Assembly (NCBI GenBank): GCA_021904315.1
Contig: CM038911.1
Span: 20,867,390-20,931,389 of the forward strand
Reading direction: 5' to 3'
Source: Sphagnum magellanicum
Lineage: Eukaryota; Streptophyta; Sphagnopsida; Sphagnales; Sphagnaceae
Length of the DNA: 64,000 bases
This document shows positions 3,375 through 40,425 of the stretch, piece by piece (position 1 is the first letter of the stretch; each line of letters opens with the position of its first letter). The notes under the pieces were generated by a model. It was given only the letters and a program-made list of their open reading frames with translations, searched no databases and was not told where the DNA came from. Made by a program: the position numbers and the translations under genes.

Positions 3375-4348
3375 TGATGCATTCCTAACTCCTGGAAAGA
3401 CTCAAATGTGAGTCCAAGTAGAAGACAGCGAAAGAGGGAAAAATTGGGGCACGCTCCCTAGCTCACAACACTTCGAGGGGTAGAAGGGCGTGTTGGAGCT
3501 CTAGGATGGGACTAGGAAGAGTTAACAAGCTTCACTCACTCACACGGGCTTGCACACAACCCACACAAAGTGATTAGTGCATAGTTGGAGCACCCTTGGT
3601 GCGAGGATGAGCCACGAGCAACACGGACACACTAGACTCACCATGGCCCGAACTTGGGGGAAGCCACCACCTTCCCCCTTATAGTATACTTTGTGGCTGG
3701 CCACGGAGCCTACATCCAAATGGCTTTTCTCTCTCCGGGATTCTCGAGTAGGAGTCCCGAAATCACGCCGATTAGGACTCTTGCAAATTTGGAGCCCCAT
3801 AACTTTCTGAGTAGACCTTGGATCAAGATGCGATCTAAAACAAAGTTATAGCTGTCATCGAGAGCTTTCCAATGGTATGTCACACGCCCCTTGCAGCCAA
3901 GTAAATCGGGTTGATTCTTGATTTTTTCTGGTCGAGAGTCAAACTGGCAATTTGACTTTCGACCCTTCTTTTGGCCATAACTTGTGTTTTAGATGTTCAA
4001 ATGAACAATGCAAGCCCATTTTAGACATGTATGTTCCAAGAATTTTTTCATGATATAAAGAACGCCACAAACCATTGAGTTTTGACCCCTGAAATTGCTC
4101 TCTAAAATTTTAGGAGTCCACTAGAACTCCATCTCCCAAAGTGGGAGTTGCCTTGGGAGTGTGAAGGTTCACTCCTTCATACTCTCTCACACTTTCTTAC
4201 ACTCCCAGGAGTATGTGATGTGACTCCCAGGCTTTTTCTTGGCCCGCAACCTTACGGCCTTTTTGCCTTGATTCCTGGGCTCCTTGTTGGCCCGCAACCT
4301 TGTAACCACTTTGCTTTGGTTACGAGCCTAAAGCTAGGGTTGCGAGAG
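3375..4348 (-). mobile_element. Solo LTR, chromovirus family B1, TSD GACAT
   Basis: A 974-bp LTR homologous to the LTRs of chromovirus 1. On the minus strand it starts like TGTCGCAACCCTAGC and ends near the TGATGC end at 3375. A perfect 5-bp target duplication GACAT lies at 3370-3374 and 4349-4353. No internal region is attached, so it is a solo LTR left by LTR-LTR recombination. The conserved TTGACT palindrome of this family lies at about 3934-3960. Confidence 0.88.
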
Positions 4349-4718
4349 ACATGCAATCATGGATTTTCTTTTTTGTATCTTTTCAAATTGGAGCAAATAT
4401 TGCTAAACATGTGGAATTATAGAATGTGGCAAGAACATTAATGGATCAACCACATGAAAAGGAACTAAAAATTTTGGTAATCCAAAATAAATTGAAAGGC
4501 ATGGAATTAGGAAGCCAATTAAGACCACAAAGTCGACATATTTGTCCATATATTCAGACCAAGAATAAAAAACCAGAGGGGTATTCATATCCACATTCTA
4601 CACCACAGAAGATATTAATGGGTAACCACAAAATGGAACATTATCGATTTCGAATCAACATAATTTCACTAATAGTGTCAAAAACGACAATTGTTGAAAC
4701 CCAAAAACAACTTGTTGG

Positions 4719-5179
4719 TGTCACAAACACCACCATCACCCATTGTTTGCATCATCATTTGCACCAACATAATCACCTACATCATCACTTGCATCATCAT
4801 TAACTCTTAGTGAATTTCTAGTTCATTATTAGTTATGAAGCGTTTCAAGAAACTTCCTTGGTCGGCACACACGTGGAAGCTTTTATGAAGCTTCCTTAAA
4901 CTAGGTCCCCAATGGGGTATAAATAGGATTAGGACCTCTCATTACCTTCAGTATGTTCAACATTAGTTTTGGGTACACTTTCTTGTCATAATCTTTGTTT
5001 TCATACATTATCAAAATAAAATTCTGTTTGAATCATCTTTTAACATATACCTTGTTCTTGCTTTACGTCTTTATTTTTCTAATCTTGAATTAGATTTAGG
5101 CTTGCATTTCTTGTGATTTGTTTTCCTTGTTGTGTCCTAGGCTCAATCCATATTCTTATAGTTTTTCATGCTTATAACA
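4719..5179 (+). mobile_element. Solo LTR of a different family, with TATA box
   Basis: A 461-bp insertion starting TGTCACAAACACC and ending CTTATAACA. It interrupts Tat-like sequence that is continuous at 54960-55000, next to the shared CAACTTGTT. It holds a good core promoter, TATAAATA, at 4918-4925. TG...CA ends and the internal TATA make a solo LTR the best reading. The target duplication is not clean and no other copy is in the window. Strand is set by the TATA box. A CAT-rich stretch near 4730-4800 translates into a histidine-rich run that I regard as meaningless. Confidence 0.6.
4918..4925 (+). promoter_or_regulatory. TATA box of the 4719-5179 LTR
   Basis: TATAAATA in the middle of the LTR, the usual place for the U3/R boundary signal. 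Confidence 0.5.
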
Positions 5180-7985: not shown

Positions 7986-8560
7986 GTGTTATGTCTTTGG
8001 GACACAAGGGCTTCCCACAACTTCATAACCCAAGAAAGTGCCGAAAGAATGGAGCTATCGTTGGAGGAGTTCAAGGCACCCATTGAAATGCACTTTGCGG
8101 ATGGGATTCCCCATCCCACCAAGTTACAAGCAAAAGATGTTCCTCTCCAATTAGGGAATTGGAGAGGCACGGTGGACTTGTTAATTTCCACCTTAGGGGG
8201 AATGGATTGCATTTTGGGAATGGAATTCATCACACGTAACAATGTGCTCATAAAAGGGCACAATAGGTTAGTTAAGATCCCATCCAAAAATGGGATCGTG
8301 CGAATGAAGGTGCATGAAGTGCCTAGTGTGGGTGGGACCACCATCCACTTGATGTTGGGAAAGACCTTGGAAAGAGAATGTGTGGGAGGCTATGCCATGT
8401 TGTGTGTGATGTGGGTGTTAGATTCGTTTCAACCAAAGGAAGCCACCAAGGTGGTGAGCCTCCACAAGTGCATCAAGCAAATGTTAGAGGAATTTTCGGA
8501 TGTGTGTTTGAAGAGTTGCTCGATGAGTTACCCCCGAGAAGACAAGTGGACCATGTGATC
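7986..8560 (+). pseudogene. Chromovirus 1 protease and RT N-terminal linker
   Basis: Retropepsin-like remnant with the catalytic neighbourhood LWDTRASHNFI, followed by the ILGMEF flap-side signature and the acidic linker leading to RT. Fossil. Confidence 0.75.
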
Positions 8561-8589
8561 GAGGTGATGCCAGGAGTGGCACCTCCACC

Positions 8590-8850
8590 AAGGCCCCATA
8601 TCGAATGAATCATGAGGAGTTAAAAGAGCTTAAGGTTCAACTCAAAGAACTCCTCGCAAAGGGATACATCAAGCCTAGCAAGTCACCATATGGGGCTCCC
8701 GTCTTTTTTGTTCACAAGAAGGATGTGGCTTTGAGAATGTGTGTGGATTATAAAGCCCTCAACAAGGTGATGGTGAAGAATTGATACCCATTGCCTTGGA
8801 TTGATGATTTGTTCGATCAACTTTCGAGAGCCAAGGGGTTTCGATACCAT
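8590..8850 (+). pseudogene. Chromovirus 1 reverse transcriptase, N-terminal part
   Basis: The RT beginning is recognisable from [15 protein letters not shown] and the [10 protein letters not shown] signature. Only the front part of the domain is present before integrase sequence follows. Fossil. Confidence 0.75.
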
Positions 8851-9275
8851 CATGGTGGTGGTGGATCGATTTAGCAAGATGGCACACTTCATTCCCACCA
8901 AGGAAAGTGCCATGGCCCAAGAGACGGGAAGGTTGTTCTTGACCCACGTGTTCAAGCATCATGGCCTCCCGAAGGAGATTGTGTCGGACCGAGACCCGAA
9001 GTTCACAAGTAAGTTTTGGAGATCCTTGTGGAAGCGCATGGGGTCGAAGCTCAAGATGAGCACCTCATTCCGACCCCAAATGGATGGACAAACCGAAAGG
9101 GTGAACTCGATGATCCAACAATTCCTAAGGAATTATGTGGCAGCGGATCAACAAGATTGGGTGGACCATTTGGAGTTGGTCAAGTTTTGTTTCAACAATT
9201 TGGAGCACTCGGCAACAGGGGCCACCCCCTTTCAAATGGTGACGGGCAAGTCACCAATTGTGCCCACAAATTAGG
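8851..9275 (+). pseudogene. Chromovirus 1 integrase core
   Basis: The DDE integrase core is recognisable from MVVVDRFSKMAHFIPT, VSDRDPKF and DGQTERVN, the usual spacing for Ty3/gypsy. Fossil. Confidence 0.82.
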
Positions 9276-9295
9276 TTGGGCAACCTCCAAGTGAT

Positions 9296-9889
9296 GTGAG
9301 TGAGGAAGTACCCATGGTCACACAACTTGATGAAGAGAGGCGGCGCTTGTGGGAAATGGCCAAGGCCAATCTTGAGAAGGCGCATAAAAGGTACAAGGAC
9401 TTTGCGGACAAGTCCCAGCGAGAGGTGAATTTTGAAAAAGGGGATGAAACGTGGTTGAACATCAAGAATTTCCAGTTACCAAAAGGTTTGAGCCACAAGT
9501 TCTTGGGCCCATATGCGGGCCCATTCAAAGTGTTGGAAAAGAAATTTCCTGACACTTACAAATTAAAACTACCGGAAAATCTTAAGGTTCATCCCGTATT
9601 TCATGTTTCCCTTTTGAAGCCAGTCGCCCGTGATACCTCAAGGCCCAATCGAAAGCACAACTCAAGGCCCCCTCTGGACTTGGTTCATAATGAACCAGAA
9701 TTTAAAGTGGAGGCTATGCTCAAGTCGAGGCAATTAAGGGGGCAAGAGTGGGAGTACTTGGTCAAGTGGAAAGGATGCCATCCAATAGAGGCATCTTGGG
9801 TGAATGAGTCCGACATGGAACATGCCCAAGAAACCATAGAGGAATTCCACAATAGACCGGTAAAGAGGCAAAGGAAACATAGAACATGA
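9296..9889 (+). pseudogene. Chromovirus 1 integrase C-terminus with chromodomain
   Basis: This 198-codon stretch contains the GPY/F module (KFLGPYAGPFKVLEK), then HPVFHVSLLKP, then a chromodomain with EYLVKWKGCHPIEASWV and a C-terminal helix. Chromodomains at this place define chromoviruses and are thought to direct integration to modified histones. It is the longest open stretch of the element, but it is one part of a broken fossil. Confidence 0.85.
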
Positions 9890-14039: not shown

Positions 14040-14420
14040 TTCATCCAAAACCCTTAACAACCAACTCTAACCATTTAGAAAAATGCTCGATCATAACTTG
14101 AACATATTGGTTATGTCAAGGTGTCAAATTCAATGGGCTGGCAAAATCTAAGCTCCATTGATAACCTAGCCCCATAATCAATAAAGGTTGTAGTTGGGGT
14201 GTTGGTGTGTTGAATGATGCCCATATTTGATCATACACCACACCTAGAAACAAATTGCTAAACTTGTAGTTGCATCCCATGCCACCAGTATTATGCATGG
14301 AATAAATTGTAGGTCCGTCAAACCCCAAAATGGCCCAACTCTTCACAAGCATGTCGTACAAGGCCCTCATGCTACTTTGGGTGTGGTATTACATGTGCTA
14401 GCCCAATTGTCCACACACAT
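14040..14420 (-). pseudogene. Integrase part of the methyltransferase-bearing gypsy
   Basis: Remnant recognisable from YQWSLDFASPLNLTP followed by VMIEHFSKW, the start of the DDE core. It ends abruptly at family A sequence. Fossil. Confidence 0.75.
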
Positions 14421-14659
14421 AATAAAAAATTACCTTCACATCGGAACCATTTTGCCCTATGGACAACCTAACCTACTCCTTGGGTGTCAATCCCATCGGA
14501 ACCTGACCTACATGTAGATATGCAATGACAAATAAACCTAGATGGATGTCCAAGGCACCATTTCCTTCTGGTTCATCATTATCACTATGAGAATTCTCAT
14601 TACTCGTGTTGCCTTGGGGTACATCCCCAAAACATCTCAACAAAATACACATGTATGTA

Positions 14660-15190
14660 AAGGCATGCCATCTTGGTGTTGCCTCCAAATCCACCTCTCC
14701 ATGCCGCTTGGCACCTATGGTATCCTTTTCACTAGAACTTGGGTTCCAACTCAACCCATTGGCATCCCGATTAACCCTATCAACCTTATGAACAATATCA
14801 AAATTGTATTCCTAAAGGATAAGTGCCCATTTGGCCAACTTTCCTGTGAGTTGATTTAATTCCATTAGAAATTTCAAGGGTTGGTGATCGATAACCAAAG
14901 TAAACGGGCTACCATATAAATAACACTTTAAAGAAAAAACTACCCAAACAATAGCAAAGCCCTCCCCTTCATATGAACTATATTTGGCCTTTGTTTTGTT
15001 GTTGGACCAATTGGCTTATGCCACCACAAATTCCCAACCATTGTCATCCAATTGGGTAAGCATGGCTCCCAGCCTTAAGGTATTGCAACTGAAAAAGATG
15101 TCGAATGGGTTACTTCAAGATGGGGGCTAAGGAAAGTTGGGCCTTCAACTCTTGAAATGCCTATTCCTGTTCCTCACCCCAAACATATTC
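14660..15190 (-). pseudogene. RNase H part of the methyltransferase-bearing gypsy
   Basis: The tail of RNase H and its connection to integrase are recognisable from DHQPLKFLMELNQLTGKLA, then NFDIVHKVDRVNRDANGLS. Fossil. Confidence 0.8.
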
Positions 15191-17000
15191 CTAGTCAATT
15201 TGTGTCAACCTAGTTAAAGGTTTAGTAATGCCACTAAATCCTTTAACAAATCTTCAATAATAATTACACAAGCCTAGGAAGGCTTGTATCCTATTGACAT
15301 TTTTCAACTAGAATACTTATGAAATGGCCTCAACTTAGGCCTTTTGTACCCCCAATCCATTTAAATACATCATGTGACCTAGGTATTCCACATGTGTCTG
15401 GAAAAATTGGTATTTGCCTGGATGAAATTTAAGGTTATGATCTTTAAGTCTTCCAAATATTTCCTATAGATGATGCTTGTGATCCTCTGATGTTAGGCTA
15501 AAAATGATAATATCATCGATGTAACATTTGGCAAAACCAAATCTTACTAATACTCAATCCATCACCCTCTGAAATTTTGCAGGGGCATTTTTTAAACCAA
15601 ATGGCAAAATTTGCCACTCGTATAAACAATCCTTCCCATGAAGATTGATTCCCCAAAATGTTGTTTTGACCTTGTTGCCTTCCCTCAATAACATTTGATG
15701 GTAGTGAAACTTCAAGTCTAAAATACTAAAAACCTTGGCCTAACCAAAGTTATCAAAGATCTCCTCTGGTAGGGGCATGGCATATTGTTTGAATGTGTGT
15801 GCGACACAACCCAAACTCCTTGAAAGATTCAAAAAAGAATCCCAAAATGAAAACAATAAAAGGAAAAAAAAAAAATTAGGTACTTTCCCTTGCTTGTAGC
15901 ACTTCGAGGGTAAAAGGGGCGTGCTAGAACTCCAAGATGGGGATTAGGATGAGTGACAAGCAAGTTAATTATTCATATTGATCTACACAACCAAATAACA
16001 AGTTGGTTAATACATAATTGGAGCATTTTTAGTGCACGAATGAACCACGGGCATACACAGATTCACAAGATTCACCACAACCTGGACTTACGGGAAGCCA
16101 CCACCTTCCCCTTTATAATATTTTCTATGATTTGCCATGAGGGCTACACCCAAATGGTTTTTTTCCCAAGATTCCAAATTAGGAGTCTTGCACTTCTTGA
16201 AATTGAAACTCTTGTCACTTTGATGCCCATAACGTTTTGTGCAAAACTTTGATTAAGGCGAGGTTTTAAACAAAGTTGTAGCTCTTGTCAAGATCTTTGC
16301 AACGATATGTAGCATGCTTCCTACACGGATGTAAATCATTGCGATTCTTGACTTTTAATGGTTAAGAATCAAATTGACACTTTGACTCCCAACCCTTCTT
16401 TTGACCATAACTTATGTTATAATTATTTAAATGGATAATGCGACCCCATTTTATACATCTAAGTCTTAAGACTTTCCAATGGCATAAAGAAGTTTTCAAT
16501 CCAATGATTTTTTACTCTTCAAATTGCTTTTTAAAAATCTGGGAATCCATCGGGACTCCAACTCCCAAAGTGGGAGTTTGCTTAAGAATGTGTGAGTTCA
16601 TTCCCTCACACTCTTCCACATTCTCAAGAATGTGAATGTGATTCATGGGTTACATTCCCAACCCACACCTTTCCATGCACTTACTTTAATTGCGAGCCCA
16701 AGGCTAAGATCATGACATTATGCTTATTGATTGGGCAATAATCCCCACACATGCGTTGTTCCGTCCAATTGCCAAAAATATCCTTCTTGGCTAACATCAC
16801 TATGGCTAACGCATACTCACCTTTTGACAATTCCATCAAGTTTGCATCCAACAACTTTATTATCCAAGCCTAAACCAAGGCCTTCTCCATCTCACTCAAA
16901 CTATAAGGTCATTTAAAAATAGAATTATCATCCTACAATACAATTTGAACTTCCTGTCCTTTCAACTATCCCAATCTATTCAAATTAAAAGTAAAACAAC
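15190..17000 (-). pseudogene. Reverse transcriptase of the methyltransferase-bearing gypsy, split by an LTR
   Basis: RT signatures on the minus strand are KKDIFGNWTEQRMCGDY and PINKH (16718-16860), and beyond the LTR FSILDLKFHYHQ, LPFGLKNAPAKFQRVMD, the YIDDI catalytic box (about 15510) and VEYLGHMMYLNG. The two parts flank the solo LTR at 15800-16717. Fossil. Confidence 0.85.
15800..16717 (-). mobile_element. Solo LTR, chromovirus family B1, inside RT
   Basis: A 918-bp LTR matching the B1 family on the minus strand. The flanking sequence on both sides is RT of the surrounding element. The target duplication is no longer recognisable and the LTR is among the more diverged B1 copies, so it is an old insertion. 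A degenerate TTGACT palindrome lies at about 16365-16390. Confidence 0.82.
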
Positions 17001-17389
17001 CAACATAATCCTACAATAGTTGTCATACTTCTTACACCTCATCTTTTGTAATTGTGGGACCAATACTTGGCTCCCATGACTTTGCAAATCCTATACCTTA
17101 GGCTAAGATGATGACACATCCCCAACACTTGAGGTTGCGAGTGAAACTTATGATTATTATGCAAAATGTGACGTAGCACCATAATGCCTTGGTGCCCCCA
17201 CATCAAAAACCTCCTTCTCATTACCTATAAATCTTTAATCTCATAAATGCCAAGGATGACCCCCCTTTACACCAACATAGTTGACCCAAATGTAGGTGTA
17301 ACAAAAGTAAAGGAAGGGTGGGTGGGTGAGAAAGACTATGCAAATCAACTTGCTTAGCCCAACAAAGGTTAAAAATCCATGTGAGATAG

Positions 17390-18350
17390 GTAAGACCTAT
17401 AACCTGTCCCAATATCCGTCTACGAGCACCTTCAAAAATCCCTTACACAACTATGGTGCATGTGCGAAATCCCATGGTTCGTTCTTGTTCATCAACATTG
17501 GGCTTTTAAATGGATGAATTGGCATCCCAAATCATGCTTGGATTGCCATCCCAAAATGTGTGAGAATGTGGAAAACTAAAATGAGTAGGTAAGGCTACCC
17601 GAGGTAGGCCAACCCTGTTGATTACAGCCAAAGGTGGTCAATCAATGTGTTGAATGGTAAAAGAATGTTGTCATGGATCCAAAATATCATCCACCAAGCA
17701 TGTGGGTGACCTCAAAATGAGCCGATATGTGTTCTGAAACCCCTTTAGTGGATTTAGGTTAATCCATAACCACCAAAAATGGTGGGCATGTGAACTAACT
17801 ATTATAGCATCCACATGCATTGGCTCCTTGATCCAAGCCTTAATTTGTTGCCATGTTGCCAATATAACTAGCTAATAATCCCCCAAAGGTGGAACATTCT
17901 CCAACACATATGTACATGAATGCAATTAAAAGGTCTACAAATATTATAACACTCAAATTAATTCCCAAAATAACCTTGATCTGGGGTTTTTAAATCCCTA
18001 ACATATGCCAACCTATGATAAACCCTGACATGGCCATCTTAATATGACCAGGTACACTAGTTTGATCTTGTCCAAATCTTGTGCCCCTAACAATGTGATG
18101 TTGTTCATTATGGCATGTTAGTAACCCTAGATCACTGATGTAAGCAACAACTTAGCATGTTGTTGTCGTAGCATCATAATATGGTGCATGGAAGCTTATC
18201 GAGTTTGAGGATCCTTCTCCACATAATAGTATAACGCAAACCTTGATGCTAAATTGAAGGATCGTTACAAGGTTGGAAGTAATGTCTCCAAAAAGCTCTA
18301 CCAAGCAAATCCCATCCTTATGAATATGCCATTGGATAACCCTAGAATCC
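17390..18350 (-). pseudogene. Cytosine-5 DNA methyltransferase domain within a gypsy element
   Basis: On the minus strand the C5-methyltransferase motifs occur in canonical order. Motif I is LVELFGDITS (18284-18301; AdoMet binding). Motif IV is RWPCQGLS (about 18016-18041), with the catalytic Pro-Cys. Motif VI is LENVPPLGD (ENV at 17893-17901). Next comes a DNMT3/DRM-like stretch, MHVDAIIVSSHAHHFWWLW (about 17755-17830), then the motif IX-like ERTMGF (about 17458-17485), then the motif X-like RRRILGQVIG (17396-17424). The span, about 320 codons, suits a complete catalytic domain without regulatory domains. It sits between the protease-like region and RT of the same element and strand, so it looks like polyprotein cargo rather than a chance neighbour. 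Retrotransposon-borne methyltransferases have been reported in a charophyte alga and in dinoflagellates. The copy is a broken fossil and cannot be active. Confidence 0.85.
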
Positions 18351-18649
18351 AAAGGTCATAAACTAGTTGGTCCATGGCTTGGCTCTACAAGTACTTATGG
18401 GCCTGGTGATGGTAGAATGTGCCAAGCTTGATGAATATAATGTCTGGTTGATGCCTGAACTTTTGACAACATTCCCCATGATGGTGCAAGATCATGTGAT
18501 GAGCCTTGAATGAATGACCCAACCTGGGCACTTGACATCTCCAACTCATGAATAGGGGGGGGCCATCCATAACCTGGACATTACCTTCAAATAAATCAAA
18601 ACCACGGGGAAGCCTTGAAAATCATGTTAACATTATTGAATTACTAGAT

Positions 18650-19050
18650 TTTCCTGCATGCCCCCCAATGAAGGTAGTTAGGAAAGCCTTACGACTATTT
18701 CTTGTTTGCCATCATGGTTGATAATAAGTAGTCTCCTCCCAAAAATCCAAGTTGATTCCCAAGGGATACAAAACTACCCCCGCCAACCAGCACATCATAC
18801 AATGTAACCTACATAACCATTACCTTAGCATAGACCATGGTATAATTTGCAAGTTTGACGAGATTAACCTAAATGACGACCTCATGTTTGGTTATCCCCC
18901 AAGCTCTTTATGACCCGCCCATCGATATCAAAATTTGGTATGAACATGGTTCCAAATTAACATCGGTCAACCCTAGACCCTCCACTACTACTTTGTCCAA
19001 CATCAAAGGTTAAGCTCTTGAATCCAATCGTATTTTCTGGGGTTGGTAAT
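18650..19050 (-). pseudogene. Protease-like region of the methyltransferase-bearing gypsy
   Basis: A weakly preserved retropepsin-type region. The minus-strand peptide VTLYDVLVGGGSF resembles the ..YDVLLGMDF.. stretch that follows the catalytic Asp in gypsy proteases. Assigned mainly from this and from its place between the knuckle and the methyltransferase. Fossil. Confidence 0.5.
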
Positions 19051-20194
19051 ATTTTCCTGGAACCCCTTCATCTAAAAAACACCTTCTTAATTCCACACCA
19101 CCATTACACCAAGTAGAACCATGATTGATTGATGGGTGGGCATGCTAGAAGCTCTTGGAGTTTGGCTACTACAACATGCCAAGGTGGTACCACCATAACA
19201 GGTGGTTGGCTTACAAGTGATCGACCAACAAATATCCTGCTGATAAGTAGTCCATCAACAAATGGACCAACATAAGCTCAACAAGTAAATGGTTGACAAG
19301 TATGTCACCAACAATACCTAACCGATTAATGGTTAAGTGAATATGAACTCTTGGGAATTTTTGACATGTGTAGCCACCAAGTGTATCCACACCATCACAT
19401 AATGTGGCTACCATCCAAAATATTGCAACCGGTCAAAAATCAGGCATTGCCAAAGTCATAGTGAAAAACAATGGTGTCTAGCACACCAACCTAGCCACCT
19501 CCCCCAACACACTATTGGGCGCTTGGGTTCTTGAAATGGAATCACAAAATCTAATGGTAGCAACCAATCCCTTACTAGGGTTGGATGCGTCCATCAAGGT
19601 GTGGATTGTGTTGATCAACATAAAGGATTATGGTAGACAAACCTAGCGTTGGCCTCCCCACGCTGAGGATCCAACCTTTCGTTAACACCTCATGGTTTTT
19701 GCACTTGAACATTTGCCCTAATAATTGGTGCAATTATCAAAACCCTAACCAAGCTTTTATCATCAATTGCCCATAAAACATGATCATTAGGAATATTTGA
19801 TTTCATTTCATTTGGACCTAATGGCCCTTAAAATCTAACCCCACAAAAAAATCCAAGGTCAAAACCCTAAGCTGAAAAATCACATAGCATAGGTGTTGTG
19901 GGTTTCACATGTGTCACCATGATAGATGCCATACTTGTCATTAGTGCCTTCAAATGTGCAAATCGTTCTCCCATGGTATTAGGTTGGTTTAGAACTAACT
20001 TGGTGGTTGGCCCTTTATTGGTCGCACCTTTCACCTTCTAACCTTTGCTAAAACCTAGGGACTTCCTTGCATTTTCCATATGGGATTGACCTTGCCAAAG
20101 CTCTAGATGAAGCATGAAGCAATGATCTACATCATGGCCATATGCCTTGCAATGGGAGCAAGGTTGGTTGGGATTGGGGTTAGAATTGGTTGTT

Positions 20195-20950
20195 TGAAAA
20201 GGATTAAGACAATCCTTCTTTTGATGCAGCCCACCACAGCTCCAACACTTATCCTTTCCCCCGTGTTTAGCAATGTAGGATGGGGAACCCCCATAGGGTT
20301 TTTGTTTGGGCCCTTTGCCCTTTTATGGTATAGTCCTTAATGGCTAACCATGTGACTATTGAGTCGATGAGGGCAGATAAGGTTTTGGGGTTTCCTTATT
20401 AAACCTTAAAGTGATAACCTTCTCCTCCATCATGTTGAGCTCAATGCATTCATAAGCCTAGAAAAGTAATGCCAATGTGGGTTGGGTCGACTAGGTGAAC
20501 ATTATGTCTCGCACTTGTCGTCTTAGATCCTTTTCTAGGATCCCATACCAAAATTGTACATCATGAGCCTCTCTAACCCCCTTGGTCACATTGATTAACC
20601 TTCACATCCATGTGTACGCCTCTTGCAAACTTTCATGGGGTTGTCCTTAAAACTCTTGCAATGTGCGGAGTTTTTCAGTCTTCACACCCTAGTAATGGGT
20701 GCCAAGCTCCTCAAAAAACTCAATGACAAGGTTAAAAGTGAAAAGAGCCCGTGCCCTAATAGTCGGATTGTTGCCACCGCCCCTAGGAGTGGAAAGATTT
20801 GCACCAATCCCTGTGATAGTGGTTGATGGGGTAGGTGTTGAGACAACTGATCGACCTTTTGTGATGGAGAAATAATTTGGTGACTAATACCTACGCCATT
20901 CCTCAATGTTACCGTCATGGGCATCAAAAAACTCATGCTAGTCATCCATG
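20195..20950 (-). pseudogene. Gag with zinc knuckle of the methyltransferase-bearing gypsy
   Basis: Capsid-like remnant with PHESLQEAYTWM, VQFWYGILEKDLRRQVRD and ECIELNMMEEKVI (about 20640-20400), followed by one CCHC knuckle, CWSCGGLHQKKDC (about 20195-20250). This places the 5' side of the element at higher coordinates. Fossil. Confidence 0.78.
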
Positions 20951-22582
20951 GGTGGTCTTTCTAAATGCTAGAATAAACCCTTCCATGCCAGGAAAGGTGT
21001 AAATTGTTGTGGATTATGTAATTATTACACATCACAAGAAGTATTGAACTCTCGGATGAAATCATCTAGTTCAATGGTGTTGACCGCCCCCCAAAAATTG
21101 ACAGGGCCCTTTAAAGATGCCATACATGTCCTCCATGTCCCACACAAATGGTATCGACAATACTAGTGGTAGTTATGTTTCAAAATCAAAAAAATATCCC
21201 TTAAGTGATAATGTACGTGGGGTAGGTAGTTAGAATCGCACCCCCTGCCTAATAAATCCTCCAACAAACCTATCTCCAAAATCCAAATCCTGACACTTAT
21301 TTGTGATGAAACCCTAACTTTAATCCAAATCTCCTTGAAAATCGTAAACTTGTAACTGTGAAACCCCACTATGACCAAAATTGCTACATTTGTATTAATT
21401 CAACTAATTCTACAAGGATGCTAACCTAGTGTGGCTTTCCCTAACCCTAAAATCCTCTAAACCAAAATGGTAACCAAGGTTCATGCAAATGTATGGTTGG
21501 GGCACTTGCATCCACAAAAACATTCTATGGGGCCAAGCACGCACTTGGGGCTATAATAACCATAAAAACAATAAATGTGATCTCACTAGTCATTACCTCA
21601 ATCGTACCGCCACAAAAAGTCCATTAGTCATCAACCCAATCTCATTTAACAACAAAGACAAGCACTAGGTACAACCTACTCGCCACTAAACCCTAATATT
21701 TATGTCTAGGCAAACCAAGGGTCGAATAGGACCTATTTAGTATTCAGAGTTTGGTGGTAGCCTTATCCCATACCTAACCATTAACCACACCAACTACAAC
21801 CTTTGGGCTCATTATATGTTGCAATTAGCACACATGGGAGGGCTCGTACACTTTTAACCAAAGTTTCTTACTGAATAGTATGCAAAAATTTACATGAAAT
21901 CATCACACAAGCTTTTATTCACCCTGTGACGTAGCCGAAAAACACATAACCTAACAAATTTCCCTACCCCTAGATAAAGAATTGATAATCCCAAACATAG
22001 ACATAGGAAACATGTGCAAAAATCCACAACACAAGGGGCAAGAACTCTTTAACATAGACACACCTCCACCCCTGTAAGCTCCACTAGGAGACTTACAACA
22101 ATAGGTATGCAAAAATTCAAAAGTTGATGACACAGCTTGATGGCTTGACACTCCACCACCTCTGGGTATCAAAAGTACTTACAAGTAAGTTACCCGTGTG
22201 TTGTTGCAACATTCCTTGCCTTCCTATGCCTCACACCTCCCTACACCCCTCATGCCACACCACCAGAAAAAGGGTTGGAAAATGACCCTCCGCCAATCTA
22301 GCTAAAACCTCCTAAAATGATAGCCTCCTTCACCACAAGAGCAATGGTGAAGATGGCACCCCCGAAACAAGCATCCTATGTGTGAAATATCAATTTTTGG
22401 GATTTTATGTGAAATATCACCCAAAAATAGGAATATTAATCTCTGGACTCCCAAAATCACAATCTCCAAAAGTGGCTATATGCTCACTATTGTGTAGTGC
22501 TTGCCAAGACGAATCCAATGATGTGAGAATCATCGAAATCTAAGCCCGTATGTGGAAGATATGACTTGCCAAAAATCACAGA

Positions 22583-23060: not shown

Positions 23061-24768
23061 CAAGTGTTGCCCACAAAAATCACAAAGGCAAGAAGCTCCT
23101 CTCCCCATCGTTCCTACTCCTCCCCCTTAGCTTTGCGCTTTGTTAAGGAGAGAAAAAACGACCACCACCAAGAAGACAAAGGGGAGGTTGGTGCATTGTT
23201 AGGCTCCCCCTACCCTAGCTCTTCTAGTGGATGTTGTTGTAACCACAACAACTCTCATTGTTGGTAGTTCAACGAAAATGCCAACACTCTTCTTTTTGCC
23301 TTTTTTTTTTCCCCTCTTGAGCTAGGCAACTAGTTGAGCTCTTGGCGATAGCAACGATAGCTTACCAAATCTAATGTTATACTTATAGGGTACTAAGAGA
23401 GGTGGAAAAAAAGGAAAAGAAATGAAAGGGAAGGGGGCGAACCTCTACAATAATGGAAGGGGGCCCTCATTTGTGAGTTTTTTTTTTCTCACCACTCTAT
23501 GCAACCTTTAAACTCAGTGCTAAAACAACTATAGCCCAATTGTAGCACAAAAACAATTAATTAGACTTTTGGTGATTCAAAAGATTGACTCGTAACAACA
23601 CAAGAATCCAAGCCTAAAACATAGAAACCAAAACACTTGCATAACAACAATACTTAAAAATATAAATTATGCTATAGAATTTCAAATCACCAAAAGTGAT
23701 TTGAAATGACACTCCATGGGATTTTATCCCAAAACCAAATATTTTGAACCATGTTCACACTCAAACCAATTCAAGACAAATTAATTAACCTAACTAACCC
23801 AATTTAGCTTAATTATAACCTAATTAGGTAGCTAAGGTAAAACTCCTGACACCTCAAAGGGTTATAAACTTGAAGAATGGAACTTTGAATTTTTTTGGAA
23901 TTTACCATAATAATAAGGGTTTCATGTGGTTACAAAAAGATAAATATAAAAATGTAATGGCTCCTAAAAAGTTTTAATTCATGGTAAGTTCATTGGGAAT
24001 TCATGACATGTATCAATTTTGAATTGGGGTCAATGTCCTTCTTTTGTAAGCTTGGGTGTCAATATGATTCTTGAAATGGCATGCCTTTGGAACACACCAT
24101 ATCTTTTCTTAATTAGTTTTGTTGACGAGTCATGTAAAGCATAATTGAAGTTTGAAGAATCTCCTTGTAAATTTAAGAATTGACATCAATACCATTTGGC
24201 AAGCCTAAGGACCACAAATCACCAACCTTATGTTGGTTTAGGCTCTTTTTCATTATTACTTAATCTTCTTCCAATCATGGATGAAAGCACACTATAGGTG
24301 ATTACATAATTCTATCATGTAATGATTAAGAATCAATAACTAGCCACATACAAAAGAAAAATGATCAAAATATGAATTGGATTCAAGATGATTCAATAGT
24401 CATATTGATTAAGTTTTTTGGCAATATGGAATATACATGATGACATTTATACAAAACAGAACAATTTTGAAAGATGTTGATGACCAAAATATCGAGATGT
24501 AATTTGACATGTATTATTTTTATAAAGTTATTTATTCATTCAAATTAATAATTTAGATATTATCATCTTTCAAATATAATATTTTCATATGATATTAGGG
24601 TGGATAAAGTCCAAAAACTAAAAAAATACTTGTTTAGCCTTGCCATATGGCTTGTGCAATACAACATATCATCCTTACAATGTATTTATGATGTTATTTT
24701 GGTAATTTAAAACCTTGGTATGAAGGTTACTAGTGTTTGGGACATTATCCCTTTTCATAAGGTCATCA

Positions 24769-24802: not shown

Positions 24803-25779
24803 ATAAGGTGTCCCTAATAAAAATTAGGCGAATTATAGCATTTTCCTAGTTCAAAGGACATCACATCCAAGTTTGGGGAATGCTAAGAACAATGAGAAGA
24901 TGTCGAGAGGTGTTATGTGAAAACATCAAGAAATAATGAAATGATGACAACACAATGAGAAATGATGAGAATAATGATGGAATGACAAGAAAATGATAGG
25001 GAATGAAAGGATAGTAGGAACAATAGAAAAATGGTGTAACACCAAGAAATATGTTAGGGGATGTCATGGGGGAAAATTGAATGACAAGGGCCAATAGAGG
25101 ACAACAAAGGACAACAACAATGTTGGGAAGCATGTTCAACAATGTCAAGGGACATTGGGATTTTTTTTTTCATTTTTAGGTGACATCAAAGGATGATTGC
25201 AACATTGGGGAACACATTAAACGACACTAAAAGGTATATCAAGAGATACCATGAAAAATAATTCAAGAAAGGAAAAATATTTAGAAAACAAATATTATAT
25301 ATTTTTTCAAATAACAATGGATGTCAAGAGACACACCAAGGAAAAGTAAGAAACACTTCAAAGGATGTCAAAAAGGACATTGCACTAGTAGAAATCTACC
25401 AAAATACAACCATTGCATTTACGATTACATGTGATTTCTAATCATTTACAGTTTTGGAAATATTTGTAATTATAAAATCAAATTTCAACTATTTTGGTCA
25501 TTTTTGTGACTATGTTGCAACTATTGATAACTTCATCCTATGGGCTAGATGGTTTTTTTAAATTTATTTTCATCCATGAATACGTTAATATGTTTCACTA
25601 GTGACAATAGTCACCATGTTAGTCACACCCCTAGAGATATTCTATGGTTATTTAGGTGTAAGTTTTTATATATGTATTAAAATAGTATTTGAAGATATAT
25701 TAGCCATCTAATAAAAAAATTCATATATTAATTATGCTTATATATGTATAATTTTCATATATTGAATATAGAATTTCAT

Positions 25780-26760
25780 ATTTTAAATCTGAAAATTTCT
25801 ATTTGAATTTGAAAATTAATATTTGAGTTCTGAAAATTATTATTTGAATATAAATTTTTTTAGTTCAATTCCAAAAACCTTTCTTTGAATTTGAAATTTC
25901 ATATTTGCATTCTAAAAATTGTTATTTGAATATCAAAATCGACATTTAAATTCAAATAATTGTAATTTGAGTCTGGAATTTTTTTTTTCAATTAAATTTT
26001 TTTTTCAGTTTGAAAATTGATATTTGAGATCGGAAAATTGTTATTTGAATATGAAATCTTCTATTTCAATCATAAGAATTCTTATTTGAATTTGAAAATT
26101 CATATTTGAGTTCTGAAAATTGTTATTTGAATCTCAAAATCAATATTTAAATTCTGATCATTTTTATTTCATCTGAAAATTTTATCTCAATTTGAAAAAT
26201 GTTATTTCAATCTGAAAATCCATATTAAAATTTGATAATTTTTTTTTGAAGCTGAAAACTGTTATTTGATTCTAGAAATTGTTGTTTGAATTTGAAATTT
26301 GACATTTGAGATCTGAAAACTGTTTGTTGAATCTGAAAAAGAAATCTTTCAATTTTGGTCATTGTTATTTGAATCTGAAAATTACTATTTCAATTCTTTA
26401 AAACTTATTTGAATTTGAGAATTTTTATTCAAGTCTGAAAAATTTTGTTCAATTATTTTTGAAAAAAATTGAATTTGGAAAGTTTCATTTGAATCTGTAA
26501 TTGATATTTCAACTCTAAATTATTTTATTCGAATCTAAATTTGTATTATTTCAATTCTGAAAATTATTAATTGAGTCTAAAATGGTTATGTCAAATTTGA
26601 AAAATTTTATTTGGATCTAAAAGTGGATATTTCTATTTGAAATTGAAAAAATTATTTCAATTTAGAAATTTATATTTGATTTCTGAAAAAAATTATTTGA
26701 GTTTTTAAAAAACTTATTTGAGTCTGAAATTTCATATTTGAATTCTGAAAATTGGTAATA
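25780..26760 (+). repeat. AT-rich degenerate tandem repeats inside the CACTA element
   Basis: Dozens of diverged units built on ATTTGAATTCTGAAAATTG with variable spacing of about 20-28 bp. They probably derive from expansion of a short subterminal motif. Confidence 0.75.
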
Positions 26761-28677: not shown

Positions 28678-29583
28678 TGACATGCCCTCAAGCTCCTTGA
28701 TAGACTCAAATGTAAGTCTAAGGTGAAAACAACAAAAGAGTAAAAAGTCGAAGCACGCTCGCTGGCTTGCAACACTTCGGGGGTAGAGGGGCGTGTTGGA
28801 GCTTTGGGATGGGGATTAAAAAGATTGACAAGCAACTCAATCACTCACATGAACTTACACAAACCAAACAACAAGTTGGTTAGTGCATAACTAGAGCACT
28901 ATTGGTGCACGGATGAGCCATGGGCAAACACGGACTCACAAGACTCACCACGGCCCAGACTTGGGGGAAGCCACCTTATAATATACTCTATGCATGGCCA
29001 TGGGGCCAGCACCCAAATGGCATTTTGTCCCGGGACTCCCAAATGGGAGTTTCGAAATTCCCGAAATTAGGACTTTTGTAACTTTAGAGGCCCATAACTT
29101 TGCGTGCAAACCTCCGATTGAGATAAGGTTCAAAACAAAGTTGTAGCCTTAGTCGAGAACTTTCTAACATTATGTGGCATGCCACCTACACACAAGGAAG
29201 TTAGGGCGATTTTTGACTTTTAGTGGTAGGGAGTCAAATTGCTAATTTGACTTTCGGCCCTTCTTTTGGCCATAACTTATGTTTTAAATATCCAAATGGG
29301 TCATGCAAGCCCATTTTAGACATGTAAGTTCTGAGAGCTTTCCAATGATATGAGGAAATTATTAATCCAATGAGTATTGACCCCTGCAATTGCCCTCTGA
29401 AAATTCGGGAGTCCATTGGAGCTCCAACTCCCAAAATGGGAGCTCATTTGGGAGTGTGAAGGTTCATTCCCTTACACTTTCTTACACTCCCGAGAGCATG
29501 AAATGTGACTCCCGAGCTCACTCTTGGCCCACACTTTTGTAAGCCCTTGTCATGGTCACGAACCCAAGGCTAGGGTTGTAACA
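28678..29583 (-). mobile_element. Solo LTR, chromovirus family B1, TSD CCATG
   Basis: 906 bp, flanked by a perfect CCATG duplication at 28673-28677 and 29584-29588. Removing it restores continuity with copy A4 (AAGGATT...TGTTCAA). The palindrome lies at about 29230-29254. Confidence 0.88.
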
Positions 29584-29599
29584 CCATGTTCAATTTGGC

Positions 29600-30170
29600 A
29601 ACAAACCTCCAATCACTTCAAATATTATTCCTATCACATAAGTTATCCAAATCTAGCTTATTTTAGCTCATTAAAAAATTAGCTACAAGATGCATCTACC
29701 TACCAAATTCCAAGTTTTGCACCTAAACCAATAGTAAATTATGTTACCAAACTCGAGAGGGTTTTACGAAAATAGAAAGTTTATCTTGGCTCTAGAACAC
29801 CAATCACTTAAAATATTATTCCTATCACATACATTATTGAAATATATCTTGTTTTAGCTCATTAAAAAGTTAATTACAAAGCACATTAGCTTACCAAATT
29901 CCAAGCCTTGCACTCAAACCAATAAGAAGTTGTGCTACCAAACCCGAGAGGGTTTTACGAAGGTAGAAAGTTTAATTTGGTTGTAAACCACCAATCATTT
30001 AAAATAATATTCCTATCACATACATTATTCAAATGTAACTTGCCTTAGCTCATTAAAAAACTTATTACAAGGTACATTTGCTTGTCAAATTTTAAGCTCT
30101 CCACTTAAACCAGTAATAAGTTCTGTTACCAAACCCGAAAGGGTTTATGAAATTTCTCTAAAATTTCAAA
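29600..30170 (+). repeat. Three tandem units of about 190 bp in copy A3
   Basis: Units start near 29603, 29805 and 29990, each with CCAATCA...ATTATTCCTATCACATA and ending ACCAAACTCGAGAGGGTTTTA or similar. A4 has a single unit (minus strand, 54350-54510), so the units were amplified locally in A3. Confidence 0.7.
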
Positions 30171-30280
30171 CTCCCAACACTATCCCTACTCATTTCCATT
30201 CTTTCAAAAGTATTATAATCATCCAATCTATTCTCCTTCTTTCCACCATCTATTAAGACTCATCATTCTTCTCCTCCCAA
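30076..30280 (+). repeat. Left 205-bp arm of a direct repeat flanking an LTR
   Basis: Matches 31246-31450 over the same 205 bp, from (A)TTTGCTTGT to CTCCTCCCAA. It ends in CTCCCAA, which is also found at the end of the LTR. Confidence 0.75.
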
Positions 30281-31245
30281 CTCCTTGAAGGATTCAAATG
30301 TGAGTCCAAGTGAAAAACAGCGGAAGAGGGAGGAGTTAGGGCACGCTCCCTAACTCACAACATTTTAAGGGGTAGAGGGGCGTGTTGGAGCTCCGGGATG
30401 GGACTAGGAAGAGTTGACAAGCTTCACTCACTCACACGGGCCTACACACAACCCACACAACCCACACAAAGTGGTTGGTGCATAGTTGGAGCACCCTCAG
30501 TGCTAGGACGAGCCATGGGCTATTTGGACACACTAGACTCACCACGGCTCGGACTTGGGGGAAGCCATCACCTTCCCCCTTATAGTATACTTTGTGGTTA
30601 GCCACAGAGCTTACATCCAAATGGTTTTTCTCTCCCGGGATTCCGGAGTGCGAGTCTCAAAATCGCGCCAAATGGGACTCCCACGACTTTGGAGCCCCAT
30701 AACTTTGTGAGCAAACTTCGGATCGTAATGCAATCTAAAGTAAAATTGTAGCTCTCGTTGAGAGCTTTCCAACAGTATGTGGCACGCTCCCGGAATCCAA
30801 ATAAATCGAGTCAATTCTCGACTTTTTGTGGTCAGGAGTCAAATTGGCAATTTGATTCCTGGCCCTTCTTTTGGCCATAAATTGTGTTTCAAATTCCAAA
30901 TGAGCAATGCGAGCCCATTTTAAACATGTACGTTCCAAGAGCTTTCCAATGATATAAAGAACGCCACAAACCATTGAGTTGTGACCCCTGTAATCACTCC
31001 CTGAATTTTTGGGAGTCCACTGGGACTCCATCTCCCAAAGTGGGAGTTGCCTTGGGAGAGCGATGGTTCACTCCCTCATACTCCCTCACATTTCTTACAC
31101 TCCCGGGAGTGTGTGATGTGAATCTCGGGCTCTTTCTTGCCTTGATTTCCGAGCTTCTTCTTGCCTTGACTCCTGGGCTTCCTCTTGGTTCACAACCTTG
31201 TAACCCCTTTGCCTTGGTTAGGCGCCCAAAGCTAGGGTTGCGACA
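30281..31245 (-). mobile_element. B1 LTR between 205-bp direct repeats
   Basis: A chromovirus B1 LTR on the minus strand. Its TGTCGCAACCC end is intact at 31245. At the other end the terminal bases merge with family A through a shared CTCCCAA (30274-30280), and no 5-bp target duplication exists. Instead, 205 bp of family A is present on both sides. This fits recombination between family A copies rather than simple insertion. The palindrome lies at about 30834-30859. Confidence 0.8.
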
Positions 31246-36080: not shown

Positions 36081-37120
36081 ATGGCGCCCAAGAAGAATCG
36101 GAAGCAAGCCCAAAACACCATGTTCAAAGAACCCAATGAAGACCATGTAGTCGTACTGGAATCAATTGGGGAGGAGGAACCAATAACCCGAGAGGACCAA
36201 GATGAGCCCGAAAGTGAGGAGGAACAACGGAGCTCGGTCCTATTCACCCAAGAACAATTGGAAGTCCTCCTCAAGATGAATAGGCCCGACCTTAGTGAGT
36301 TGGTTACGGCCCTCAAGGGAGAAGCATCCAAGGATACGAGGTTCCAACTAGCCAAACCCGGGAACTTCGATGGTGCCCGTGACCGAAAGGTTGTGGATGC
36401 TTGGCTTGCGAAAATGGAGGATTATTTGCATGCCGCCAAGGTTGGACGGCACTCGGCCGTGGAGCTTACCCAGTCCTACTTGAAAGGCTATGCCGCCACA
36501 TGGTAGAGGACCGTGAGACAATAGGAAGGGAAGAACCATGGCTACATTTGGGAGTTTTTCAAAGATCTTGTCGAGACCAAATTTGTCCCAAGGAACTCCG
36601 ACTACATTTCGAGGTGCAAACTTCGTGACCTTGTGAATGGCACAAATGAAAATTTGAGGCAATATGTGAGGGCTTACTCCGAACTCATGCTCGAAATCCG
36701 ACACATGCATGAGTTGGACCGTGTGTGCCAATTCGTGATGGGACTTCTAACTTGGGCCAAGCGAAAGCTTGAGGAAAATTGGCCCTCCTCACTATCCGAA
36801 GCCATCAGGAAAGTGGAAGGCTTCTCGGATGTGGGGCGGAGTGAAAAATCCAGGTTAAAAAAGGACAACAAATTCCTTCACAAGAAACCAAGGCATGATG
36901 GCGAATGGAACCGTGGGCAAGGAAGCCCAACCAAGGACAAGCCCAAACAATTCCAAGGCACGGGGTTTAAACCCAAGGGGAACTTTGTGAAGAAGGGGGC
37001 TCCTTTCAAGAGGAGCCAACCCAAGGGAGATGTTGGGGTGAAACCCAAAGGAGCATGTTTCAACTACAACGAGATGGGGCACTACTCCAAGGATTGTCCC
37101 AAGTCCAAAACGGGGAATGG
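36081..37120 (+). pseudogene. Chromovirus 2 gag with zinc knuckle
   Basis: Capsid/nucleocapsid remnant: ATG in MAPKKNRKQAQN, the acidic segment, DRKVVDAWLAKMEDYLHAAK, RQYVRAYSELMLEIRHMHEL, a basic tail and a CCHC-type knuckle around CFNYNEMGHYSKDC (about 37058-37100). Closely related to the gag of chromovirus 1. Fossil. Confidence 0.85.
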
Positions 37121-37149
37121 GGGCTCTAAGGTAATTGCCTTCAATGCCA

Positions 37150-37830
37150 ACCTAGCCCAAGTTGAATGCAATCGACTTATCTTCTTGAAGGGGAAGATTG
37201 CTAAGCGGGATTTGTTATGTCTTTTGGACACATGAGCTTCTCACAACTTCATAACACGAAAAAGCGCCAAAAGGATGGAGCTCCACTTGGAGGAGCTCAA
37301 GGCACCCATCGAGGTGCATTTCGCGGATGGGGTTCCCCATCCCACTACGTCATAAGCAAAAGAGGTGCCTCTCCAACTAGGAAATTAGAGAGGAAAGGTG
37401 GACTTGTTGGTGTCCTCCTTGGGTGGAGTGGAATGCGTTTTGGGAATGGAGTTCATCACCCAAAACAATGTGCTCATAGAAGGGCACAATAAGCTAGTTA
37501 GGATTCCTTCCAAAAGTGGGATTATGAAAGTGAAGGTGCATGAGATGCCTTATGTGGGTGGGCCAACCATCCACATTATGTTATGAAAAACCTTGGAAAG
37601 AGAATGCGTGGGAGGTTACGACATGTTATGTGTCATGCGGGTGTTGGATGAGTATGAGCCCAAGGAAGCCACCAAGTTGGTGACTTCCACCAAGTGCATA
37701 AAGCAAGTTTTGGAAGAATTCTCGGATGTCATGCCCGAAAAATTGCCCGAAGACCTGCCCCCGAGAAGACGAATTGATCATGCAATTGAGGTGGTACCGG
37801 GAGTGGCACCTCCCGTCAAGGCCCCATATA
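37150..37830 (+). pseudogene. Chromovirus 2 protease region
   Basis: The retropepsin neighbourhood (LLCLLDT at about 37205, then VECVLGMEFITQNNVLIEGH) precedes the RT linker with [18 protein letters not shown]. Fossil. Confidence 0.78.
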
Positions 37831-39330: not shown

Positions 39331-39389
39331 CCTTTTTGGGTTTAGCCTCCTACTATCGCAAGTTCATCAAGAACTTTGCGAAGATAGCG

Positions 39390-39870
39390 CGCCTTTGACA
39401 AACCTCTTGAAGAAGTCCATCGTCACTTACGAATGGGAAGAAGCATGCGAGAAAGCTTTTGAAACCTTGAAAGGTATTTTGGTGAAGGCACCCGTGTTGA
39501 AGTTGCCCGACTTTGATAAGGACTTTGAGATCCATTCCCATGCCTCCGACTTTGCAATTGGAGGAGTCCTAGTGCAAGAAGGAAGACCGGTGGCATTTGA
39601 GAGCAAGAAGTTGAATGAGACGGAGCAAAGGTGGCCAACACATGAGAAGGAAATGTGGGCGGTCATACATTGCCTCAAGACTTGGGGCCATTACATAGGC
39701 TCCAAAGATGTGGTAGTGTGGACCGACAATGTGACCTTGAAGTACTTTGCAACTCAACCCAAGTTGTCCTCAAAACAAATGAAATGGCAAGACACATTGG
39801 CCTTGTTCAATGTAGATATTCGTCACAAGCCCGGGAAGGATAATGTGATGCCCGATGCGTTAAGTTGAAA
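39390..39870 (+). pseudogene. Chromovirus 2 RNase H
   Basis: RNase H remnant with HSHASDFAIGGVLVQEGRPV, the TxxEKEMWAVIHCL helix, VVWTDNVTLKYF and the end HKPGKDNVMPDALS. Order and length match the family. Fossil. Confidence 0.87.
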
Positions 39871-39879
39871 ACACCAACT

Positions 39880-40425
39880 TAAAGTGGTGTATGTGGGAGA
39901 GACGGAACTTCAAAAGGAAGTTCGACTAGCAAGCTGCCGAGATGCATTTGCCAAGGAGGCAAGGCAAAACATTCAAAATGTAGCCAAGTCCCACTTCCAT
40001 TTGCAAAATGGATTATTGTGGTACAAACAAAAACAACTCTATGTACCGGAAGGGAAGATGAGGGACACCATTTTGAAGGAGTGTCATGATGGACCGCTTG
40101 CGGACCATGGTGGTGCAAAGCGCACCACAACACTCTTAAAGAAGTCCTACTATTGGCCCAACTTGAAGGATAGTGCGGAAGAGTATGTGAAGACTTGTTT
40201 AAATTGCCAACAAAACCGAACCCTCAACAAGAAGCAAACGGGTTTGTTGCAACCTTTGTCAATTCCGGAAGGGCCGTGGGAGAGTGTGTCCATGGATTTC
40301 ATGGTAAGCTTGCCCCCATCAAGGGGGTTCAATGCCATCATGGTGGTGGTGGATCGATTTAGCAAAATGGCACATTTCATTCCCACAAAGGATGAGGCCA
40401 CGGCCCAAGAAATTGGTAGGTTGTT
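39880..40425 (+). pseudogene. Chromovirus 2 integrase, N-terminal and core start
   Basis: The zinc-binding HHCC region (ILKECHDGPLADHGGAKRT, then CLNCQQNRT) is followed by the core start MDFMVSLPPSRGF and VVVDRFSKMAHFIPT. A reversed LTR begins at 40426. Fossil. Confidence 0.87.

Follow-up and report, generated by a model that had tools for sequence, protein, structure and literature searches.

A dead DNMT3-type methyltransferase domain in an old Ty3/Gypsy-type retrotransposon copy of a moss genome, and its relatives in that genome and in other bryophytes

Introduction

What is a run of cytosine-5 DNA methyltransferase motifs doing in the middle of a Gypsy-type retrotransposon in a moss, and might it have served the element that carries it? 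The question arises in a stretch of 64,000 nucleotides (the window, by which we mean this whole stretch), where an earlier note had read a C5-methyltransferase between the protease and the reverse transcriptase (RT) of a gypsy element, and had suggested that the element may have methylated its own DNA or host chromatin.

Such combinations have precedents. Retroelement DNMT3s are known from Klebsormidium and dinoflagellates (PMC5890265), and the earlier note had pointed to reports in a charophyte and in dinoflagellates. Streptophytes and dinoflagellates are also the groups for which PMC12344493 refers to previous reports. According to PMC6338049 (2019), land plants such as tracheophytes have no transposons that encode a methylase.

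Results

A decayed methyltransferase within a Gypsy-type element

Positions 17335-18373 of the window hold, on the minus strand, a decayed C5-methyltransferase spread over two neighbouring frames. The segment VELFGDITS (~18298-18240) stands in one minus-strand frame, and WPCQGLS, LENVPPLGD, VDA..SSHAH..W.N, QERTMGF and RRRILGQVIG follow in order in the next (18231-17335); these correspond to motifs I, IV, VI, VIII and IX/X, whose order on this strand is as the earlier note had described it. Motif I reads FGDITSN here and FGGISTG in several other copies. The profile search of the translated interval that had been proposed as a check returned PF00145 at E 9.5e-5 and 22.4 bits for a piece joined over the frame change, barely over the Pfam cut-off of 22, while the single-frame piece alone scored 21.8 bits, slightly below it; open copies lie well over the cut-off. 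On sequence grounds the decisive match for the identity of the domain is that to the open-frame relative P0001 (37% identity over 226 aa, E 8.6e-42), itself a 281-residue piece that stops short of motifs IX/X. Set by itself against PDB sequences, the fossil gave no significant match (best E 0.33).

The flanking domains lie on the same strand, collinear with polyproteins of Marchantia from gag through protease, methyltransferase, RT and RNase H to integrase:

23578..23826, minus strand: likely 5' terminal repeat A (77% to L039:3650-3908, blastn E 3e-47)
19648..21123, minus strand: gag with zinc-knuckle region, decayed (tblastn with P0029, P0028 and P0062, ~35-36%, E 2e-72 to 1e-78)
18743..19066, minus strand: aspartic protease region, decayed (tblastn with P0025, P0036, P0038 and P0041)
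17335..18373, minus strand: DNMT3-type C5-methyltransferase, decayed (motifs, PF00145, alignments to P0001 and Marchantia polyproteins)
16717..17121, minus strand: RT, N-terminal part (tblastn with P0034 and P0025, ~47%)
15798..16721, no strand assigned: nested interspersed repeat of ~0.9 kb that splits the RT (blastn of L010, L012 and L029; similar sequence elsewhere in the window)
15101..15796, minus strand: RT, remainder (tblastn with P0025, 46%, and P0039, 57%)
14641..15084, minus strand: RNase H (tblastn with P0039 and P0025, 55-56%)
14056..14392, minus strand: integrase, zinc-binding region and start of the core (tblastn with P0040, P0051, P0056 and P0061)

This is the Ty3/Gypsy domain order (gag with zinc knuckle and aspartic protease, then RT, RNase H and integrase), and alignment upholds the claim that gag, knuckle and protease lie to one side of the methyltransferase and RT, RNase H and integrase to the other, the knuckle of the window copy being recognised by eye. 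The gag also aligns to P0026 at 38% over 21120-19927 (tblastn), and PF13975 is found at the place corresponding to the window protease in an open sister ORF; among the copies scanned, a Pfam CCHC match comes only from a subfamily A copy and a Pfam protease match only from a subfamily B copy. The stretch L039:3650-3908, to which the likely repeat A aligns, lies past the integrase of a sister copy, the L012 element, ~1.1 kb further downstream. The sister copies L010, L012 and L029 lack the 0.9-kb repeat at the place in the RT where the window has one. Toward the 3' end of the window element no terminus was found: similarity ceases at 14056-14059 (the L039 alignment ends at 14059), so that recognisable sequence stops at the start of the integrase core, with no recognisable PHD finger in what is left. 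It is close to certain, as a matter of identity alone, that 17335-18373 is a dead methyltransferase domain of DNMT3 type belonging to an old copy of a Ty3/Gypsy-type retrotransposon.

The window also holds other repeats. Further copies of the 0.9-kb interspersed repeat, at 66-73% identity (12 alignment pieces, both strands), occur at about eleven more places, for example 28689-29511, 3384-4191, 30276-31092, 51923-52526 and 60065-60651, and the ORFs at 42041-42526, 51995-52468 and 59762-60199, alike by eye, overlap copies of it. On the plus strand are two more Gypsy-type elements with long open frames (7986-9889 and 36081-40507), probably chromovirus-like by eye, the second with an RT at 38835-39392 that matches a Marchantia RT by tblastn; another decayed RT/RNase H region (57547-58959; tblastn with Marchantia polyproteins); and a 204-aa open frame (49441-50055) with, by eye, the look of a Copia-type gag-pre-integrase/integrase. 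A tandem array of a 41-base unit occupies 25721-26226 and a 191-base direct repeat array 29588-30160. Rfam and tRNA scans of the window found nothing.

DNMT3-type identity of the domain

Profile match, predicted fold and unrearranged motif order together indicate that the methyltransferase domain is DNMT3-type. A profile of 12 domains (A1), run against PDB sequences, matched DNMT3A at E 7e-23 and DNMT3B at 2e-21, followed by 4onj (5e-12), HaeIII (7e-9), DRM2 (4e-8), HhaI (2e-7) and the tRNA methyltransferase DNMT2 (2e-6); 4onj, named only 'DNA methyltransferase' in the PDB listing, we take to be a DRM. The predicted structure of a subfamily B domain (pLDDT 90.7, pTM 0.90) drew its best 50 PDB structure matches all from DNMT3 entries, with E values from 2.9e-17 and TM-scores of at most 0.85 by target length.

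A DRM origin is ruled out, for the motif order in A1 is linear, with IX/X after I-VIII in the same frame rather than rearranged, and the matches to DRM2 and 4onj span only profile positions 6-137 or less. The profile likewise rules out a DNMT1 or CMT origin: no chain so named is among the 57 PDB sequences listed at E <=0.01, some of which are named only 'Cytosine-specific methyltransferase'. Motif IV reads PCQ in the land-plant lineage and ECQ in subfamily B, as against PCN in DNMT3A. The reading WECQ in place of WPCQ, which keeps the catalytic Cys, is seen in L033, P0027, P0058 and P0060, that is, in subfamily B and in several algal or unnamed relatives. Because the domain is DNMT3-type, maintenance of CG methylation is less likely than de novo action.

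Copies in the host genome and their ends

The genome searched comprises 438,994,042 bases (439 Mb) in 31 contigs. P0001 gave at least 138 scored matches there (905 candidates), the window copy not among them; 16 of these, counted by eye, have no stop in the matched stretch, and the other 122 have stops. When the 30 best-scoring loci were fetched, the order protease-methyltransferase-RT, assessed in 3.8-kb loci, proved to be kept in 26, with no protease match in L003 and L029 and no RT match in L008 and L024. The other genomic copies of this arrangement, for which the earlier note had proposed to look, do exist. Motif IV Cys-Gln was found in 27 of the 30 loci, motif VI Glu-Asn in 29, and the exact SAM-binding motif FGGI.TG in only 18; all three are kept in 9 of the 12 loci without stops. 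In the alignment of the relatives, the columns of these four residues, C, Q, E and N, show no variation.

Similarity groups the loci into subfamily A (L001-L004), subfamily S (nine loci), subfamily C (L010, L012 and L029) and subfamily B (fourteen loci). Two copies were scanned with Pfam in pieces. A 2379-aa ORF on contig C17, covering L034 and L033, carries PF13975, PF00145, RVT_1, two RNase H families, Integrase_H2C2, rve and a PHD finger; no Pfam family was matched by residues 1-424, and a zinc knuckle was not found in it. The ORF pieces of a subfamily A copy carry a CCHC knuckle, PF00145, RVT_1, RNase H, integrase and PHD, with no protease match below 0.01 in the scanned pieces. A family protein of Sphagnum fallax, in a search that scored 37 of 4276 candidates, matched at least 147 pieces of the window's genome, most at ~67-94% and the subfamily A pieces at 40-71%. 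A near-perfect palindrome of 160 bases (98.75%) also lies in L034, at 4629-4788, which places it some 3.3 kb upstream of the ORF on C17. A long open frame of 1866 aa belongs to L026, on the 4.72-Mb contig C20, which, if the host is a Sphagnum, we presume may be a sex chromosome.

In L020 and L026 (subfamily B) and in L001 (subfamily A), a repeat A stands ahead of the ORF and B-A-B after it, so that three of the four copies examined read A-coding-B-A-B; the fourth, the C17 copy, has only A upstream and B downstream. The A pairs of L020, L026 and L001 agree at 99.0% over 315, 97.8% over 324 and 98.6% over 287 bases, and the B pairs at 97.8% over 185, 98.3% over 178 and 100% over 107 bases, the downstream A of L001 having an extra stretch. 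Simple LTRs at both ends, as in Ty3/Gypsy, were accordingly dropped as a description: none were found around the C17 copy when looked for, and the split direct repeats of L020, L026 and L001 are of DIRS type. No tyrosine recombinase, the enzyme of DIRS elements, was among the matches of the ORF pieces of the two scanned copies, which have rve and Integrase_H2C2 instead and no phage-integrase-type family.

Relatives and phylogeny

Three protein searches returned 5 relatives from 438 candidates, 22 from 3753 and 52 from 7710, and reach only relatives that share exact words, within a length range. An organism is named for 27 of the 52 (20 Marchantia polymorpha, 2 Calypogeia fissa, 2 Sphagnum and 3 Closterium) and for 25 none; the tag 'Mesvir' on one relative we take to mean Mesostigma. 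Given the matches to the Sphagnum fallax protein, the host is very probably a peat moss (Sphagnum), and a vascular-plant reading finds no support. The named relatives are from liverworts, mosses and streptophyte algae, with no vascular plant among the 27, which for an exact-word, length-limited search does not prove absence there. Two scans found no relatives in viral contigs.

P0025 has the order protease-methyltransferase-RT-RNase H, its protease being recognised by eye and alignment. A partial methyltransferase with a PHD finger makes up P0050, and P0007-like proteins end soon after the methyltransferase. In three proteins of unnamed source the methyltransferase sits elsewhere than between protease and RT: P0056 and P0058 have it behind RNase H, and P0056 and P0061 have it ahead of the integrase, P0056 reading RT-RNase H-methyltransferase-integrase and P0061 methyltransferase-integrase-PHD.

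In a tree of 35 rows, which includes neither host DNMT3 genes nor Klebsormidium copies, the window copy forms one clade with L010, L012 and L029 (100/100). Subfamilies A and S join proteins of Marchantia, Calypogeia and Sphagnum (90/95), two subfamily S copies pairing with the two Sphagnum proteins (100/99), and subfamily B joins the Closterium, Mesostigma and RT-RNase H-methyltransferase proteins (99/93); the placement of C relative to A/S and B is unsettled, and a long-branch warning for DNMT3A, Mesostigma and P0058 leaves the deep forks unsure. Judged from these sequences, at least two deep methyltransferase lineages seem to be present in one moss genome.

Decay and selection

The window copy is dead and cannot act now, because its methyltransferase frame has 14 stops in 299 codons, leaving no intact catalytic frame, because at least one frame change falls inside the domain (near 18235), and because the ~0.9-kb repeat is inserted in its RT. 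Ten of the 14 stops fall where at least three of four land-plant-clade relatives (P0029, P0028, P0035 and P0037, picked after the data had been seen) have Arg or Gln, for which, with an Arg+Gln background of 15% in the P0029 domain, the binomial value is 2.8e-6; by the majority of all nine compared relatives the count is 8 of 14. CpG o/e comes to 0.27 in the window copy and 0.12-0.33 in the C copies; for A, S and B, six copies were computed, with values of 0.33-0.75. Several copies without stops are low as well (0.33-0.43), the depletion thus being common to several open copies. CHG o/e is 0.36 in the window copy, whereas the pair of no-stop copies for which it was computed gave 0.89 and 1.28. 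The stops and the base depletion are consistent with decay by deamination of methylated cytosine, whichever enzyme had placed the methyl groups, and low CpG or CHG can arise from host methylation alone.

For the subfamily B domain, median dN/dS is 0.24 over 91 pairs and 0.23 over the 36 no-stop pairs, with corresponding RT values of 0.35 (78 pairs) and 0.33 (36 pairs); the pairs are not independent, and the loci were picked by methyltransferase score, which biases the domain value downward. Between A and S the domain value is 0.18 (36 pairs), and within A, S and C it is 0.59 (6 pairs), 0.65 (36) and 0.63 (3), so that the domain looks near relaxed within these three; the domain is saturated when B is compared with any of the other subfamilies, and likewise when C is set against A or S. 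As a signal read from sequence, the low dN/dS in subfamily B suggests a working enzyme in recent elements.

Discussion

What might the domain do in elements that still carry it open? Self- or host-methylation by the open-frame relatives is plausible on the sequence evidence. The Pol-borne DNMT3 would there be an active enzyme. As it is made in one polyprotein with RT and integrase, it may methylate de novo, at CG sites and perhaps elsewhere too, either the element's own cDNA inside the particle or the freshly inserted copy. The integrase's PHD finger would steer integration to chromatin with a particular state of the histone H3 tail, and the new copy would enter the genome already methylated and pass as host heterochromatin. 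The cost would be that deamination wears the copy down faster; the Arg/Gln stops and the low CHG seen in the window would be in line with this. In sequence, the finger of the C17 element comes closest to those of KMT2D, KMT2C, KDM5, WSTF and KAT6, with DPF, ATXR5 and UHRF1 lower in the list, and several of these bind unmodified H3 tails. Animal DNMT3 reads histones through its ADD domain, and an element that carries a PHD finger beside its DNMT3 would mimic that arrangement.

Self-methylation of retroelement DNA by an element DNMT3 is also proposed in PMC5890265, where two Symbiodinium domains expressed in yeast acted as de novo enzymes on CG. With the domain from Klebsormidium no methylation was obtained in that system, a result that the authors call inconclusive, human DNMT3B having failed there as well.

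Several points stand against working self-methylation: the Klebsormidium yeast result, the near-relaxed dN/dS within A and S (~0.6), an exact FGGI.TG in only 18 of 30 loci, and the fact that, to our knowledge, Gypsy elements generally manage without a methyltransferase. Those without one do so in the hosts treated in PMC5890265 too. Weighing all this, we regard self-methylation by the element-borne DNMT3 as evenly poised, and the joint reading of identity and mechanism, a dead DNMT3-type domain of an old Gypsy copy whose open-frame relatives methylate their own fresh DNA, as somewhat probable.

Four other accounts have to be weighed. The domain might mainly promote methylation and silencing of sister copies, limiting harm to the host and so benefiting the element indirectly, a possibility offered in PMC5890265 and one under which most copies should be silenced and decaying, as the stops in 122 of the 138 matches would have it. 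We think this rather unlikely, since, as a general argument, such restraint is selected at the level of competing hosts, a weaker force than the one acting on a step of the copying cycle, and the domain sits in Gag-Pol beside the enzymes that make cDNA. It is quite unlikely that the domain acts on element RNA, or shields cDNA from cytosine-editing enzymes, rather than steering chromatin: both roles are raised for retroelement DNMTs in PMC5890265, and the unusual motif IV that subfamily B shares with the Mesostigma-tagged relative, WECQ rather than WPCQ, might speak for them, yet profile and predicted fold place the domain with the DNA-methylating DNMT3s, far ahead of the tRNA methyltransferase DNMT2 (E 2e-6).

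Might the domain instead be catalytically idle, retained in the polyprotein just for its structure or for binding nucleic acid? The presence of an exact FGGI.TG in only 18 of the 30 loci would allow this, as would the failure in yeast of the one Gypsy homologue tested, that of Klebsormidium (PMC5890265), but the retention of Cys-Gln in 27 of 30 loci, of the motif VI EN in 29 and of all three motifs in 9 of the 12 no-stop loci, together with the invariance of C, Q, E and N among the relatives, makes it improbable. Chance nesting of a host methyltransferase gene or exon in an unrelated element has nothing for it beyond the poor state of the window copy and can be dismissed, given 138 further matches, the kept order in 26 of 30 loci, and fusion with retroelement domains in liverwort, moss and algal proteins as well.

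The nearest described system is KnitGypsy-Dnmt3 of Klebsormidium nitens, which, as described in PMC5890265, resembles the moss elements in its Gypsy-type composition, an unrearranged DNMT3-type domain in Pol, repeats described as a DIRS arrangement and purifying selection on the domain. The moss elements differ, in a comparison made by description only, in their land-plant host, in an integrase with a C-terminal PHD finger (a term absent from the main text of PMC5890265) and in the number of methyltransferase lineages, of which a single genome seems to hold at least two deep ones; no Klebsormidium sequence under that name was among the relatives from the protein searches. The order A-coding-B-A-B is given there for SymbioDIRS-Dnmt3 of Symbiodinium, a figure legend assigning a DIRS repeat structure to the Klebsormidium Gypsy element. 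SymbioDIRS-Dnmt3, too, has a DNMT3-type domain in Pol, which in isolation methylates CG de novo in yeast (PMC5890265); it uses a tyrosine recombinase, whereas the moss elements have a DDE-type integrase (rve, Integrase_H2C2).

Marchantia polymorpha polyproteins, among them MARPO_0091s0058 and Mp_2g26090 (P0025, P0039), share the order protease-methyltransferase-RT-RNase H with the window copy at ~34-57% identity for methyltransferase, RT and RNase H. They differ from it in having open frames with the methyltransferase kept, and their database names, shown truncated, are of a general kind, for example 'hypothetical protein', 'CCHC-type', 'DNA (cytosine-5' or 'Reverse transcr'. Chromoviruses, which are Ty3/Gypsy elements with an integrase chromodomain, are like the moss elements in having a chromatin-reading domain at the C-terminus of a Gypsy-type integrase; in the moss elements that task falls to a PHD finger, and there is a methyltransferase besides. 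No C-terminal integrase chromodomain was encountered in the moss elements and relatives scanned, which have the PHD finger instead.

In the literature within our scope, with bioRxiv and most subscription papers outside it, no description was found of such elements in mosses or liverworts, or of an integrase PHD finger in them; nor do PMC9516144, PMC10952607 and PMC6453930, in their available text, describe them in mosses or liverworts. The bryophyte copies contradict the absence statement of PMC6338049, for land plants at large. Apparently new here are the land-plant hosts, the PHD finger and what seem to be two lineages in one genome. A bolder picture, which we hold doubtful, is that a single Gypsy lineage took up DNMT3 and PHD before land plants and has persisted in streptophytes since, with DIRS-style split repeats, as a chromatin reader-writer in which the PHD finger would pick a target H3 state and the DNMT3 would pre-methylate the new copy, the element itself supplying de novo methylation to bryophyte genomes.

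DNA methylation is a main plant weapon against transposons, and an element with a de novo methyltransferase of its own inverts the usual picture. The methyltransferase is under purifying selection in at least one subfamily and has well over a hundred genomic matches, and with open frames present in mosses and Marchantia, what a retroelement methyltransferase does could be tested directly.
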